Source: Haloarcula rubra
Lineage (GTDB): Archaea; Halobacteriota; Halobacteria; Halobacteriales; Haloarculaceae
DNA length: 64,000 nt
Assembly (NCBI RefSeq): GCF_019599465.1
Contig: NZ_RKLR01000005.1
Location: 186,001-250,000 of the forward strand
Reading direction: 5' to 3'
Part shown: one piece after another, positions 43,051 through 61,434 of the stretch
Layout: each line of letters begins with the position of its first letter
Numbering within the stretch: position 1 is the stretch's first letter
The notes under the pieces: model-generated
Told to the model about the DNA's origin: nothing
The model's input: the letters and a program-made list of their open reading frames with translations, nothing else
Databases searched by the model: none
Program-made: the position numbers and the translations under genes

Positions 43051-43070
43051 AATACAAGTATGATTGTATT
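43051..43070. promoter_or_regulatory. Cobalamin-locus dyad operator 2 (cobN / chelatase divergent promoter)
   Basis: AATACAA-gtatga-TTGTATT, perfect 7-bp arms. It starts 27 bp upstream of the cobN ATG and covers the ATG (43060) of the divergent chelatase gene, so one bound protein could block both transcripts. Confidence 0.7.
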
Positions 43071-45143: not shown

Positions 45144-45163
45144 TTTACAACCTTACTTGTTCT
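45144..45163. promoter_or_regulatory. Cobalamin-locus dyad operator 3 (cbtBA)
   Basis: TTTACAA-ccttac-TTGTTCT, symmetric in the TACAA/TTGT core, overlapping the TTTTAC TATA-like element and ending 20 bp before the cbtB ATG. A second, overlapping dyad TACTTG-N9-CAAGTA lies at its right side. Confidence 0.6.
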
Positions 45164-45182: not shown

Positions 45183-45371
45183 ATGCAGGCAACCGACGAC
45201 AGCGTCTCCAACCGCATCGAACGCGCCAGAGCCAGTCTCACCGGCACACAGGTCGCCGTGGCGCTCGCGCTAGTGGCCGCGCTCGGCTTCACGCTCCTGT
45301 TCGTGCAGGACCCGATGCTCCACGACTCGCTGCACAACTTCCGCCACAGCGCCGGCATCACCTGTCACTGA
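45183..45371 (+). CDS. cbtB: Cobalt transporter small subunit CbtB
   Basis: A 62-residue protein with one hydrophobic helix (VAVALALVAALGFTLLFV) and the C-terminal histidine-rich metal site HDSLHNFRHSAGITCH typical of CbtB. It works with CbtA in cobalt uptake. The stop and the cbtA ATG share one base (TGATG). Confidence 0.93.
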   Translation: MQATDDSVSNRIERARASLTGTQVAVALALVAALGFTLLFVQDPMLHDSLHNFRHSAGITCH

Positions 45372-46078
45372 TGGCGACCGACCACCTCGAACGCGGCGCG
45401 CTGGCCGGCGTCGCCGGCGGCCTCGTGTACGGCCTGTTCGTCGCGACGGTCGGCAACAGTTTCACCGCCGGTCTGGAGACGTTCGAACACGGCCACGGCG
45501 GGAGCGGCCCGGTCGTCTCGGGGCTGACGACGACGATCACGAGCGTCGGCGGCGGCGTTTTCTGGGGACTGCTGTTCGGCGTCGCCGTCTTCGGTATCGG
45601 GTACTACTTCCTCGAACCGGCGCTGCCCGGCACCGGAGCGACGAGACGGCTGGCGCTCGCCGGCGCGGGCTTTCTCACCGTCTCCGGCGCGCCGTGGCTC
45701 GTCCTGCCGCCACAGCCTCCGGGCGTCGAGCAGGCTCTGTCGACGGAGACGCGACTGGCGTGGTACGGCGGCCTGATGCTCGCCGGGGCGCTGGTCGCCG
45801 TGGCCTGTGGGGTCGCGTACCGGAGAGCGTCCTCCCGCTCCCGGCCCGTCACCGTCGCGGCGACGCTCGCACCGCTCGCGTTGCTGGCAATCCCCGTCGT
45901 CCTCTCCCCAGCGAATCCCGTCCACGGCGACGTGCCGGCGGCGCTGGTCGCGGCCTACCGCTGGACGGTCGTGTTCGGGCAGTCGGTGCTGTGGGGGACG
46001 CTCGCGGCTGCTCACACGTGGCTGGGTGAGTCGGCGACGACCAGCGTCGACACCGACTACCCCGCGACGGCGGACTGA
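45371..46078 (+). CDS. cbtA: Cobalt transporter subunit CbtA
   Basis: A 235-residue membrane protein with five or six hydrophobic segments. The N-terminal RGALAGVAGGLVYGLFVATV, the histidine-containing ETFEHGHGGS loop and PWLVLPPQPPGVEQ are CbtA marks. It is predicted to import cobalt for the cobalamin pathway encoded around it. It is translationally coupled to cbtB and ends one base before a convergent small zinc-ribbon gene. Confidence 0.92.
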   Translation: MATDHLERGALAGVAGGLVYGLFVATVGNSFTAGLETFEHGHGGSGPVVSGLTTTITSVGGGVFWGLLFGVAVFGIGYYFLEPALPGTGATRRLALAGAGFLTVSGAPWLVLPPQPPGVEQALSTETRLAWYGGLMLAGALVAVACGVAYRRASSRSRPVTVAATLAPLALLAIPVVLSPANPVHGDVPAALVAAYRWTVVFGQSVLWGTLAAAHTWLGESATTSVDTDYPATAD

Positions 46079-46345: not shown

Positions 46346-47572
46346 TCACTCGATGGAAAACCGGTGCAGTCGATACGCACCGCGTTCGCGGCCCTCGTCG
46401 TGGTAGACGACGGGTTCCTCGACGGCGACGACAGTCCCGTCGTCGACGGCCGTCGCGGTGACGACGCCCGCCGTGTCGTGGGTCGCCACTCGACCGGCGA
46501 GCGTGTCGTAGACGCGGACTGCGTGGGCGTCGGGGTCGCGGTCCCGGAAGTGCTGGGCACCCGGCACGGCGACCAGCGAGTCGTCGCTCCCCAGACCGCT
46601 CGCGAACCCGCCGACTGGGCCGGTCCACCGCTCTGTTCCTTCGAGGGAAACACCGACCGCGGTGTGTTCGCGGGGGTGCCTCGCGTCCGTCTCGCGCCCC
46701 TCCTCTGGATAGGTGTTGCCCGTCACGAACACCGCACCGTCGTGGGTCGCGTGAACGTGGTTCGGATAGGCGTACACCGTCTCGCCGTCCACGTCCCGCG
46801 GCGTCGCCAGCGGGACGCGCCAGCGTTCGGCACCGCCCGCTTCGAGGCGGTAGCCACAGTAGTCGCCGTGGCTCGTGACGACGGCGCCCGAATCGAGGAG
46901 CGTCACGTCGCCGACCCGGCGCTGGCCCTCGGTACCGGGGTCCCACATCCAGCGTGGCGTCCCGTCGCCGGCGTCGAGGACGGCGAGGCCGTGCTGGTGG
47001 TCGCCGGGACAGCGGTTGTACGCCACCGCGAGACGCCCCTCGCGGACCGACAGGGCGATGGGGGAGGCGTCGGTCCGGTAGGTCCAGTCGATATCGCCGT
47101 CGGGTGCGAACGTGTAGACGACGCTCTCGAAGGTGCGCTCGCCGTCCGACCCCCGTTCGTAGCGGCGCGCGGCCGCGTACAGTCGGTCGCCGTCGCTCGC
47201 GAGGCTGGCGACGAACGGCAGGAGAAAGCGCGTCTCGTTCTGTGGCGTGCCCACGTCCGCGCGCGTCTCGTAGCGCCAGCGGACGCGTCCGTCTGCGTCG
47301 TGACAGCGTATCTCGCCGCGGGCGCTGCGCTCGCCGACGACCCAGCCACGTCCGAACCGTTCCGCCGCGACGACGCTCCGCTCGCCGTCGCTCTCGTGGT
47401 GCCACCGGACCGTCGGGCGCGTCTTCGAGACGTCGACCGCACGCAGGTCGCCGTCTGCGGTGCCGACGAGTGCGGTGCCGTCCGCGACGGCGACAGCGGA
47501 GCGGCGGCCCTGTTGGCGAGAGCGTGCCGGCGCCACCGCTCCCAGCGAGACGGTCGGCGCGTGTTCACTCAT
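46346..47572 (-). CDS. PQQ-like beta-propeller repeat protein of the cbi operon
   Basis: A 408-residue protein made of seven or eight beta-propeller blades with recurring tryptophans (VRWRYET, DIDWTYRT, PRWMWDPG, ERWRVPLA, ERWTGPVG). There is no signal peptide, so it stays in the cytoplasm, unlike most PQQ enzymes. Its start overlaps the DUF3209 gene by 8 bp, making it the last gene of the long cbi operon. A scaffold or binding role for a corrinoid intermediate or enzyme complex is an inference only. Confidence 0.8.
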   Translation of the reverse strand: MSEHAPTVSLGAVAPARSRQQGRRSAVAVADGTALVGTADGDLRAVDVSKTRPTVRWHHESDGERSVVAAERFGRGWVVGERSARGEIRCHDADGRVRWRYETRADVGTPQNETRFLLPFVASLASDGDRLYAAARRYERGSDGERTFESVVYTFAPDGDIDWTYRTDASPIALSVREGRLAVAYNRCPGDHQHGLAVLDAGDGTPRWMWDPGTEGQRRVGDVTLLDSGAVVTSHGDYCGYRLEAGGAERWRVPLATPRDVDGETVYAYPNHVHATHDGAVFVTGNTYPEEGRETDARHPREHTAVGVSLEGTERWTGPVGGFASGLGSDDSLVAVPGAQHFRDRDPDAHAVRVYDTLAGRVATHDTAGVVTATAVDDGTVVAVEEPVVYHDEGRERGAYRLHRFSIE

Positions 47573-47936
47573 CGACGGGGAACGCCTCGTGGAGGACGTC
47601 GTGGGCCTCGCCCAGCCCCACGAGGACGTCCTCGCCCTGCGTCGTCAGCCGTTTGACCGCTCGTTCGGCGTCGCGCACCGCGACGAGGCGGCCCCGGAGG
47701 TAGTCGTACTCGGGGTCGTCGCTGTCCGTACGTGCGATTTCCTCCTCTAAATCGACGAGCGCCGCGTCGAGGTGGCGCTCGACGTCGGCCAGCGTGTCGG
47801 CGTCGGCGAGCGCCTCGATGGGGCCGCTCATGTGGCCCTCCAGTTCTTGTTCCGCGTGCTGGCGCGCGTGGTCGTCTTCGGTACCGAGAACGTTCATGAG
47901 GCCCAGTCTGAGGGCCTCGATTTCGTAGCAGCTCAT
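47565..47936 (-). CDS. DUF3209 family protein
   Basis: A 123-residue, all-helical acidic protein. It starts MSCYEIEALRLGLMNVLGTE and has helices HARQHAEQELEGHM and VERHLDAALVDLEEEIAR. DUF3209 proteins are found in archaeal and some bacterial cobalamin gene clusters without a proven role. The His and Cys near the N-terminus could bind metal. It sits between cbiX and the beta-propeller gene in one operon. Confidence 0.85.
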   Translation of the reverse strand: MSCYEIEALRLGLMNVLGTEDDHARQHAEQELEGHMSGPIEALADADTLADVERHLDAALVDLEEEIARTDSDDPEYDYLRGRLVAVRDAERAVKRLTTQGEDVLVGLGEAHDVLHEAFPVDE

Positions 47937-47942
47937 AGTGTA

Positions 47943-49166
47943 TCAGAGCGTCTGGTCGACTAACTCGCTCACGATTCGGTCGCGGTCCAGATGCGACGAG
48001 ACGATACCGTCGGCGTCGTCCTCGCCCACGCCGCCGTACCAGACGCCGTCCGGGTAGACGGCGACCATCGGCCCCTCGCCACAGCGACCCAGACAGGACG
48101 ACCGGGTGATGCGGGCGTCGCACTGGTCGCTGTCGCGGGCGGCCTGCCGGAGGCGTTCGAGGACGGCGGGCGCGCCGTCCTGCGCGCAGGTCTGGTTCGT
48201 ACAGACCGCGACGTGTTTCTCCGGGGGGTCGTGGACGTGCGGGTCGTCGTCGACGTCCTCACGGTCGGCGTGTTCGGCCTGATGGGTCAGCGCCCGGAGC
48301 ATGGCACGGGCGCCGCCTTGGTCGGCCTCGTATCCGTCGAGTTCCACCTTGTACTTGCAGGTGTCACAGGACATCTCGACGCTCCCCGTCCGCGCTTCCT
48401 GCCAGCGGTCGCCGAGCACGTCGAGCAGGCGCGGGTCGGTGCCGAGGGGTTCGCCGTAGGCGACGTCGACGTAGGGGTACTCCTCGTCGAACTCGTCGGC
48501 CCCGTCCTTGATGCGCCCGGTCAGCACGCCGTCGCCGAGCATGTACGGCAGGACGACGACGGCGTCGGGCCGGGTCTTCGCGAGGTCGTGGAGCGTCTCG
48601 TCCAACAGCGGTTCGGTGACGCCGACGAACGACGCCTCGACCCGCGAGAACGCTCGCCCCTCGTACAGCAGGCGAGCGAGTTTGTGGACGTCGGCGTTGG
48701 CGTCGGGGTCCGACGACCCGCGGGCACACAGCACCACGGCCACGTCGTCGGCCTCGCGGTCGACGCCCAACTCGGCTTCGACGGCGGCCGCCCGGTCGTC
48801 CAGTAGGTCGAGGATGGCCGGGTGGACGCCCAGATGCGCGCCGTTGTCGATGGTCAGGTTCGGATGGGCCTCGCGGGCCTGCTGGACCGCCAGCGGCACG
48901 TCGTTCTTGACGTGGCTGGCGGCAAAGAGGGAGAGGTGGACGACGGTCACCTGCGACACCGTCGAGGCCAGCCCCGCGATGGCCTCGTCGATGGCCGGCT
49001 CGGCCAGTTCGAGGAAGGCGGCGTCGACCGGGATGCCCAGTCGGCCTTCGAGGGCGGCCGCGAGTTCACGCACCTGTTCGTTGGACTTCTCGCGCCGGGA
49101 GCCGTGGCCGGCCAGCAGGACCGCTTCGTCGTCGAGGCCGTCGGGGGAAGTGGTCGCTTCGCTCAT
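47943..49166 (-). CDS. cbiX: Sirohydrochlorin cobaltochelatase CbiX fused to a 2Fe-2S ferredoxin domain
   Basis: A 407-residue long CbiX. The first lobe has the catalytic VLLAGHGSRREKSNEQ (16-31) and the second VVLCARGSSDPDANADVHKL, where His is replaced by Arg. After EMSCDTCKYKVELDGY a C-terminal thioredoxin-like 2Fe-2S domain contributes VAVCTNQTCAQDG and SSCLGRCGEGP. It inserts cobalt into sirohydrochlorin at the start of the early-cobalt route. It overlaps the next gene upstream by four bases (ATGA). Confidence 0.92.
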   Translation of the reverse strand: MSEATTSPDGLDDEAVLLAGHGSRREKSNEQVRELAAALEGRLGIPVDAAFLELAEPAIDEAIAGLASTVSQVTVVHLSLFAASHVKNDVPLAVQQAREAHPNLTIDNGAHLGVHPAILDLLDDRAAAVEAELGVDREADDVAVVLCARGSSDPDANADVHKLARLLYEGRAFSRVEASFVGVTEPLLDETLHDLAKTRPDAVVVLPYMLGDGVLTGRIKDGADEFDEEYPYVDVAYGEPLGTDPRLLDVLGDRWQEARTGSVEMSCDTCKYKVELDGYEADQGGARAMLRALTHQAEHADREDVDDDPHVHDPPEKHVAVCTNQTCAQDGAPAVLERLRQAARDSDQCDARITRSSCLGRCGEGPMVAVYPDGVWYGGVGEDDADGIVSSHLDRDRIVSELVDQTL

Positions 49167-49822
49167 CGGACTCTCTCGACGCTCTTTCGGAGCTTCCGCC
49201 GTCGACTCGGCGCGAACAGCCCCGTGTTTTCGCTCCCTTCGTAGAGCCAGTCGGCCAGTGCGGGGACGGCGTCGTCGTCGACGCCGAACCAGTAGCCCGA
49301 CGAGGCGTCGGCGAGGCCGTCGTACGGCGCGTCGACGGGGGCGCTGTCGAGGAGCGACTGGACGGTCCGGAGGAGACGCTCGTCTTCGTGGACGAACGAG
49401 ACGCCCACCGCCGCGTCGTCAGACTTGAAACACACCGTGCCACACCCCTCCAGCAGCCCTCGGAGGAGTTGTCGGCCGTGGGCGGCGAGCGTGTCGAAGC
49501 GGTAGCCGCCGGCCGCCCCGTCGAACGGGAGACCCAGCGCGGCGCTGGCCCGGTCGGCGAGGCCACCGAGGACCTGCACCGTGTACTCGTCCTCGGTCCG
49601 GGTTATCGACGTGTCGTGGGCGTACGCGCGCTCGACGATGCGGTGGTCGGCCCGTTCGGCGCCAGCGATAGCGGCGAGTCGTCGGGCCGCCGTCTCGTCG
49701 CTCGTCCTGACGGTGACACAGTCGTCCTCACACTCCCCGTCTGCGGCGACCCGGCCCCAGAAGTACGCCGTCTCCGGGTGGGCCGCCAGCAGGTCGCTCG
49801 GCGCGCCGGTCTCGATGCTCAC
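49163..49822 (-). CDS. LAGLIDADG-like protein embedded in the cbi operon
   Basis: A 219-residue protein with two homing-endonuclease-like helices: TAYFWGRVAADG (18-29) and LLRGLLEGCGTVCFKS (near 117-132). Each is followed by strands as in LAGLIDADG enzymes. The first keeps the acidic D28; in the second the acidic residue is Cys, so nuclease activity is doubtful. The C-terminus PSRRRKLRKSVERVR is unusually basic for this organism. Four-base overlaps with both neighbours show it is a regular operon member, not an inserted element. I infer a domesticated DNA- or RNA-binding or enzyme-accessory role. Confidence 0.65.
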   Translation of the reverse strand: MSIETGAPSDLLAAHPETAYFWGRVAADGECEDDCVTVRTSDETAARRLAAIAGAERADHRIVERAYAHDTSITRTEDEYTVQVLGGLADRASAALGLPFDGAAGGYRFDTLAAHGRQLLRGLLEGCGTVCFKSDDAAVGVSFVHEDERLLRTVQSLLDSAPVDAPYDGLADASSGYWFGVDDDAVPALADWLYEGSENTGLFAPSRRRKLRKSVERVR

Positions 49823-50079
49823 GGTTCCACCTCCTCGGTCGCGGCGGCCGTCTCGGTCTCTCCGTCGGCGTCCGTGACGGCGATGGCGTCAAGCGGACAG
49901 GCGGCGGCCGCCTGCTCGGCCGACTCGCGCCGGTCGTCGTCGAACGTCGCGGTGACGGCTTCCGCGTCGTCGACTTCGAGACTGGCAAGTCCCTCGCCGT
50001 CCTCCACGAACCGGTCGTCGCGCACGAGACAGGCGAACACGCCGTCGCAGGCCTCGCGGTCGATAGTGATTCGGTACAT
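49819..50079 (-). CDS. 3Fe-4S/4Fe-4S-type ferredoxin
   Basis: An 86-residue ferredoxin: C11-x5-C17 in CDGVFACLVR and C61-P in AAAACPLDAI, with the usual second cysteine position taken by Val. This pattern usually carries a 3Fe-4S cluster. An acidic tail follows. Its place between cbiH1 and the LAGLIDADG-like gene, with a four-base overlap with the latter, suggests it supplies electrons to a cobalamin step such as CbiH ring contraction or CbiG. Confidence 0.85.
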   Translation of the reverse strand: MYRITIDREACDGVFACLVRDDRFVEDGEGLASLEVDDAEAVTATFDDDRRESAEQAAAACPLDAIAVTDADGETETAAATEEVEP

Positions 50080-55318: not shown

Positions 55319-55338
55319 AAAACAATTTTGGTTGTATT
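55319..55338. promoter_or_regulatory. Cobalamin-locus dyad operator 4 (cbi operon)
   Basis: AAAACAA-ttttgg-TTGTATT, differing at one arm base from perfect symmetry and from operator 2. It abuts the TTTTAGG TATA-like element of cbiT and lies 27 bp before its ATG, the same distance as operator 2 to cobN. Confidence 0.65.
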
Positions 55339-61041: not shown

Positions 61042-61434
61042 GGCTGCGGGGAGTAAGCCCCCTTCTGTTCGGGCCGGCATTCGGCTCAGCGGCCGCGTCC
61101 AGCGCTCGCGCGCGGTACCGGACTACCTGTCGACGCGGCCTTGCACCGGTGAGGATTCGCCGTTCCATCGGTCCGTCGTAGGCGAGGGGCACCGGATGGT
61201 GGCCCTCGATAGCCCTCGGTGGGTTAGCTCTCCCTCGCTTCCGAGGGGCGAGACGGTGTCACCGCCTCGCCACCCGTCGCTCGGGATTCGCACACCTCAT
61301 CGGTCCCACGACGACGTGTCGTTGCTGTTCCATAGCCGACGGTCTCCCGCCCCGGGCTTGCGCCCGGTCACCTGTCCGGCGGGTGGGGGGACTTTCCTCA
61401 TGCCTCTCGGCACGGGGGCCGGCCTCCCGCTGCC
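61042..61434 (-). ncRNA. rnpB: RNase P RNA, archaeal type A
   Basis: On the minus strand the RNA of about 393 nt holds the two universal core motifs: GAGGAAAGTCC (CR-I, 61399-61389) and ACAGAAGGGGGCTTA (CR-V, 61068-61054). Its ends pair as helix P1: GGCAGCGGGAG (61434-61424) with CTCCCCGCAGCC (61053-61042). Inner stems such as the CCGGGCGCAAGCCCGG hairpin near 61370-61355 agree with the type A fold. RNase P trims tRNA 5' ends. Exact ends may differ by a few bases. A TATA box lies 27 bp upstream. Confidence 0.93.

Follow-up and report, generated by a model that had tools for sequence, protein, structure and literature searches.

A predicted, catalytically degenerate LAGLIDADG protein fixed in the cobalt-early cobalamin operon of haloarchaea

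The domesticated LAGLIDADG proteins known to us, WhiA and the intron maturases, act on nucleic acids. WhiA (DUF199) is the nearest precedent for domestication of the kind described below: in its degenerate LAGLIDADG domain the catalytic residues are gone and the DNA surface is altered, and the protein binds DNA through an HTH domain (PMC3781837). The closest solved folds are those of the archaeal intron homing endonucleases I-Tsp061I and I-DmoI (Z 14.8-15.2), both active DNA cutters, and homologous two-repeat domains occur as intein endonucleases in haloarchaeal MCM, RpoA'', TopA and UDP-glucose dehydrogenase. In cobalamin synthesis, the His-rich tail of Bacillus megaterium CbiX(L) has been suggested to serve as a store from which metal is delivered, and deletion of the Bacillus CbiX His-rich/Fe-S region left cobalt insertion in vitro unaffected (PMC7689651). 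Within the Haloferax volcanii cobalamin cluster, HVO_B0055, which lies between cbiX1 (HVO_B0054) and HVO_B0056, is entered as 'function unassigned; no GSP' (PMC8305020); the term LAGLIDADG has no occurrence in the main text of that paper, and HVO_B0055 is not tied to the family there.

The gene described here occupies the same slot in a cobalt-early cobalamin cluster ordered cbiT, cbiL, cbiF, cbiG, cbiH1, cbiH2, ferredoxin, LAGLIDADG gene, cbiX and DUF3209, which is adjoined by cobalt transporter genes (Table 1). It is an apparent orthologue of HVO_B0055, an equivalence drawn by position only since PMC8305020 gives no sequence. Its close matches are in named Haloarcula species. The initial annotation had placed the reading frame correctly, and the four-base overlaps it claimed with the downstream cbiX and the upstream ferredoxin gene are both present. 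Coordinates refer to the window, by which we mean the whole 64 kb stretch of DNA that was analysed.

Table 1. Features of the window that bear on the LAGLIDADG gene and its cobalamin cluster
Feature	Position	Strand	Remarks
LAGLIDADG gene	49163..49822	-	GTG start, 219 aa; predicted domesticated, catalytically dead two-repeat LAGLIDADG protein
LAGLIDADG motif 1 helix, residues 18-29, TAYFWGRVAADG	49736..49771	-	catalytic position D28
LAGLIDADG motif 2, residues 119-134, LLRGLLEGCGTVCFKS	49421..49468	-	catalytic position C127, second Cys C131
Basic C-terminal helix, residues 206-219	49166..49207	-	conserved; without HTH domain
Ferredoxin gene, single 4Fe-4S (Fer4_15)	49819..50079	-	4-bp overlap with LAGLIDADG gene (49819-49822)
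cbiX (cobaltochelatase), C-terminal 2Fe-2S thioredoxin-like domain	47943..49166	-	4-bp overlap with LAGLIDADG gene (49163-49166)
DUF3209 gene	47565..47936	-	same package as LAGLIDADG gene
CbtB, CbtA cobalt transporter genes	45183-45368, 45371-46078		adjoin cobalamin cluster
Dyad AATACAA-N6-TTGTTTT (minus-strand reading)	55319..55338		upstream of cbiT
Perfect dyad AATACAAGTATGATTGTATT	43051..43070		between cobN and chlID
Third ACAA-N6-TTGT core	45144..45163		upstream of cbtB/cbtA (cobalt transporter)

The LAGLIDADG fold and its relatives

The AlphaFold model of the 219-residue protein (pLDDT 79.9, pTM 0.80) shows two repeats in the topology (αββαββα)2, followed by a C-terminal helix. The two helices that had been read as LAGLIDADG motifs from the letters alone, residues 18-29 and 119-134, have their counterparts in the model as helices 18-28 and 109-127. 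I-Tsp061I is the best structure match in Foldseek (E 1.6e-7), and Z scores reach 15.2 for I-DmoI, 15.1 for PI-PfuI and 14.4 for WhiA; among the Foldseek and VIA matches listed, the top PDB structures are LAGLIDADG proteins including WhiA. Identity to I-Tsp061I and I-DmoI is 13-15% over the alignment.

This placement is further supported by profile comparisons. The profile of 65 orthologues aligns by hhalign with an alignment of 37 intein domains over 158 columns (probability 96.7%, E 4.7e-10), and the controls (five column-shuffled profiles, one reversed and seven unrelated cluster proteins) score at most 1.0%. Only five non-orthologous protein matches were found in 293 haloarchaeal genomes, all of them long ORFs bearing inteins (RpoA'', UDP-glucose dehydrogenase, two MCM and TopA, named from their translations), and in those checked the match falls on the intein endonuclease domain. 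At L065 1773-4463, a UDP-glucose/nucleotide-sugar dehydrogenase gene contains a LAGLIDADG insertion that resembles an intein. Pfam LAGLIDADG_3 matches the window's copy at E 0.037, under the cut-off, and 14 of 29 orthologues at E <= 1, with a best E of 2.7e-5. A PDB sequence search with the orthologue profile returned nothing, even at E 10, so the structural link rests on the fold and on the intein profiles.

By predicted fold and by profile, the protein belongs to the LAGLIDADG superfamily and shares ancestry with the homing endonucleases of archaea, both free and intein-borne. The model, the PDB structure matches and the hhalign comparison agree on this, and the fold first suspected from two helices and a basic tail is thus borne out rather than replaced by an unrelated one. 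Unlike the haloarchaeal inteins, the protein is stand-alone and encoded at a fixed locus, with its catalytic acids lost and its saddle residues replaced. WhiA likewise contains a domesticated, degenerate LAGLIDADG domain and carries a C-terminal HTH, whereas the present protein has only a single basic helix after the LAGLIDADG domain, and neither the WhiA nor any HTH Pfam model matches it at E <= 1.

Catalytic positions, selection and operon linkage

The acid that ends each motif helix of a homing endonuclease is not maintained in this family. Residue C127 falls at the second catalytic acid of the inteins (D in 19, E in 17 and N in 1 of 37) and is Cys in 65/65 orthologues, which confirms the earlier remark that one acidic catalytic position had become Cys. 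The motif-1 acid is D/E in 37/37 inteins; across the 65 orthologues the equivalent position 28 is D in 50, S in 8, A in 3, G in 2 and N in 2, so that the acid is gone in 15/65, with D28 retained in the window's copy. Because the motif-2 acid is always Cys and the motif-1 acid is variable (D, S, A, G, N), the protein, judged from its sequence, is not a working homing endonuclease, and the loss of the catalytic acids is a family trait.

Other conserved residues gather around the former active site and the C-terminal saddle. C131 is invariant (65/65), as are Ser142 and Ser175, and Trp178 is nearly so; H69 is also invariant and sits in a low-confidence loop of the AlphaFold model. Polar or charged residues on the saddle side of the C-terminal half average 12% in the orthologues versus 51% in inteins, over nine positions (129, 131, 133, 140, 142, 144, 176, 178 and 180) whose facing was assigned from strand alternation. 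We infer that the protein has lost both DNA cleavage and specific DNA recognition. The basic C-terminus described in the initial annotation is real and conserved, with R207 and K210 kept in 65/65 orthologues and R208 in 62/65. Among Haloarcula-type copies dN/dS is 0.05-0.31, a range that indicates purifying selection on the gene.

The gene is present in 137/293 haloarchaeal genomes (141 with a match, less four whose sole match is an intein). CbiG is found in 143/293, and 136 of these 143 also carry the LAGLIDADG gene; the contig of the single genome with the gene but without CbiG starts at that gene. The order ferredoxin, LAGLIDADG gene, cbiX is kept in 33/34 loci read. No relative was found outside the order among 197 genomes sampled from the phylum. 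The cbi segment with the LAGLIDADG gene is present twice on the Haloarcula rara plasmid CP119786 (L052, L053). The gene is thus fixed in the cobalt-early cbi operon of haloarchaea and occurs almost only with cbi clusters, not mostly outside them, and its earlier description as a regular member of the operon stands.

These data leave next to no chance that the protein is a homing endonuclease that has kept its mobility or activity and is found in the operon by accident. The fold itself and the D28 that remains in the window's copy are compatible with such activity, but the invariance of C127 and the fixed operon slot refute it as a family trait. In place of the intron, intein or mobile setting and sporadic distribution of homing endonucleases, the gene is stand-alone in an identical slot under purifying selection. 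It is present, moreover, in genomes without a LAGLIDADG_3 match, including the window's own genome, in which no protein scores over the threshold. No relatives were found in phages or viral contigs, and the clear matches in the plasmid collection are haloarchaeal records, several of them annotated 'cobalamin biosynthesis protein'. Catalytic loss, a fixed cbi-operon slot and purifying selection all support the domestication argued for in the initial annotation, and we regard the LAGLIDADG identity and domestication of the protein as nearly certain.

Palindromic dyads and the question of a regulator

The core ACAA-N6-TTGT occurs only three times in the 64 kb, each time in a promoter of cobalamin or cobalt genes (Table 1), and most loci with the LAGLIDADG gene have a dyad of the form AATACAA-N6-TTGTATT immediately upstream of cbiT. 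On these sequence patterns, the dyad is a candidate haloarchaeal cobalamin operator. An Rfam search for a riboswitch across the window gave the RNase P match only; this archaeal RNase P RNA lies at 61042-61434 on the minus strand.

The suggestion that the LAGLIDADG protein could be the missing regulator of these dyads is not supported by comparison across genomes. Five gene-less clusters (L125, L126, L127, L168 and L169) keep the cbiT dyad in exact or near-exact form, so its presence is not evidence that it is the operator of the LAGLIDADG protein. Near-matches also occur at cobN/chlID in these clusters. The cbiT element has diverged in G142, a genome that lacks the gene (9/14 positions), and likewise in its gene-bearing congener G255 (10/14). 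Haloarchaea without the LAGLIDADG gene have similar dyads too, located next to nrdA, nrdD and nrdR or upstream of them. These nrd-associated sites (L160 1487, L162 1514, L163 1487, L164 1522 and L155 1539) tie the dyad to ribonucleotide reduction. NrdR was considered as a candidate to control the cbi dyads and set aside, since its model (PF22811) found no match in the genome of the window, nor in most of the other genomes.

A domesticated LAGLIDADG transcription factor that controls the cbi genes by binding promoter DNA, at the dyads or elsewhere, and that might respond to Co(II) or a corrinoid through Cys127 and Cys131, is for the same reasons unlikely. It would have a precedent in WhiA and its fold (PMC3781837), and it is consistent with the basic C-terminal helix, with the conservation of R65, H69 and R75, with the three dyad-bearing promoters of cobalamin or cobalt genes in the window and with the second cob/cbi regulator beside TrmB that was inferred in Halobacterium (PMC3794607). 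However, the dyads persist upstream of cbiT in the five gene-less clusters and by the nrd genes of gene-less genomes, the C-terminal saddle has been stripped of the polar residues of inteins, and the Pfam search detects no HTH family. Even in WhiA the main DNA binder is the HTH and not the degenerate endonuclease domain (PMC3781837).

CbiX architectures and a possible role in cobalt handling

The haloarchaeal cbi clusters that were read fall into two types that differ in their CbiX. Type A clusters carry the ferredoxin gene, the LAGLIDADG gene, a CbiX with a 2Fe-2S domain and without a His tail, and DUF3209. Type B clusters (five genomes) lack the ferredoxin gene, the LAGLIDADG gene and DUF3209, and their CbiX has no 2Fe-2S domain and ends in a His-rich tail with 12-40 His. 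The type B loci, a second kind of haloarchaeal cbi cluster, are the five gene-less loci named above. G142 is an informative exception that retains the ferredoxin, the 2Fe-2S CbiX and DUF3209, with only the LAGLIDADG gene of the package missing. There the slot between ferredoxin and CbiX is filled by a second, His-rich-tailed CbiX (L124 5203-6144), which is absent from four congeners. Because the 2Fe-2S CbiX, ferredoxin and DUF3209 otherwise co-vary with the LAGLIDADG gene, only G142, a single event, isolates it. A remote homologue with 33% identity in G045, a single draft genome and the sole one of its family examined, retains C127, C131 and H69; it is unlinked from cbi and flanked by two Cation_efflux genes and a rhodanese gene.

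The split between types A and B, the replacement in G142, the context in G045 and the storage proposed for the Bacillus His-rich region together make cobalt handling for CbiX the best-supported mechanism. We tentatively propose that the LAGLIDADG protein may be a cobalt-handling partner of CbiX. The former metal site and saddle (Cys127, Cys131, Ser142, Ser175 and Trp178) would bind Co(II), or Co(II) together with a tetrapyrrole; the invariant His69 lies elsewhere. The protein would help CbiX to acquire or insert cobalt, and would take the place of the His-rich metal-storage tail that CbiX carries in gene-less clusters. The fold of Bacillus megaterium CbiX(L) is unrelated to that of the LAGLIDADG protein, and the likeness we infer between them is functional. 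The more specific version, in which the endonuclease site was turned into a cobalt or Co-tetrapyrrole site by the change of Asp to Cys and the DNA saddle into a ligand pocket that feeds CbiX, is somewhat improbable on present evidence. The basic C-terminal helix, together with R65 and R75, could still contact nucleic acid, which argues against the cobalt reading, as does the unimpaired cobalt insertion in vitro by Bacillus CbiX without its His-rich/Fe-S region (PMC7689651).

Its position between ferredoxin and cbiX is also open to other explanations. One holds that the protein is a pathway component that provides, or acts as a scaffold for, one of the absent cobalt-precorrin steps (the CbiD methyl transfer or the CbiJ reduction), for which the adjacent ferredoxin might donate electrons. 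HVO_B0055 and three further unassigned cluster genes have been named as candidates for these gaps (PMC8305020), and the overlap with the ferredoxin gene and the invariant Cys residues are in keeping with a role of this kind. Pfam models of CbiD and CbiJ, however, have no match in 18 haloarchaea, of which six are cbi-positive without the LAGLIDADG gene, and the complementary presence expected of a CbiD/CbiJ substitute is not seen in these 18. Since both cluster types lack CbiD and CbiJ, the gap filler is most simply common to both, and G142 has dispensed with the LAGLIDADG gene alone among the package. A pathway component is accordingly improbable, and the comparison suggests that whatever closes the CbiD/CbiJ gaps is encoded by genes common to clusters with and without the LAGLIDADG protein.

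An assembly or scaffold protein, binding no metal or ligand, could instead join the ferredoxin, CbiX and CbiH enzymes, or serve the 2Fe-2S domain of CbiX. The fixed position, the overlaps with the ferredoxin gene and cbiX, and the association of the gene with the 2Fe-2S CbiX would all follow from such a role, but the gathering of invariant residues at the old active site and the C-terminal saddle speaks against it, and we give it little credence.

A dead LAGLIDADG protein fixed in a vitamin operon beside a metal chelatase would widen the possible fates of selfish endonucleases, and the conversion to a cobalt site, if true, would provide a LAGLIDADG protein that serves metabolism without nucleic acid. 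In the haloarchaeal cobalamin cluster, one gene out of four unassigned ones thereby gains a concrete identity, and the CbiD/CbiJ comparison makes a persistent gap in archaeal B12 synthesis smaller.
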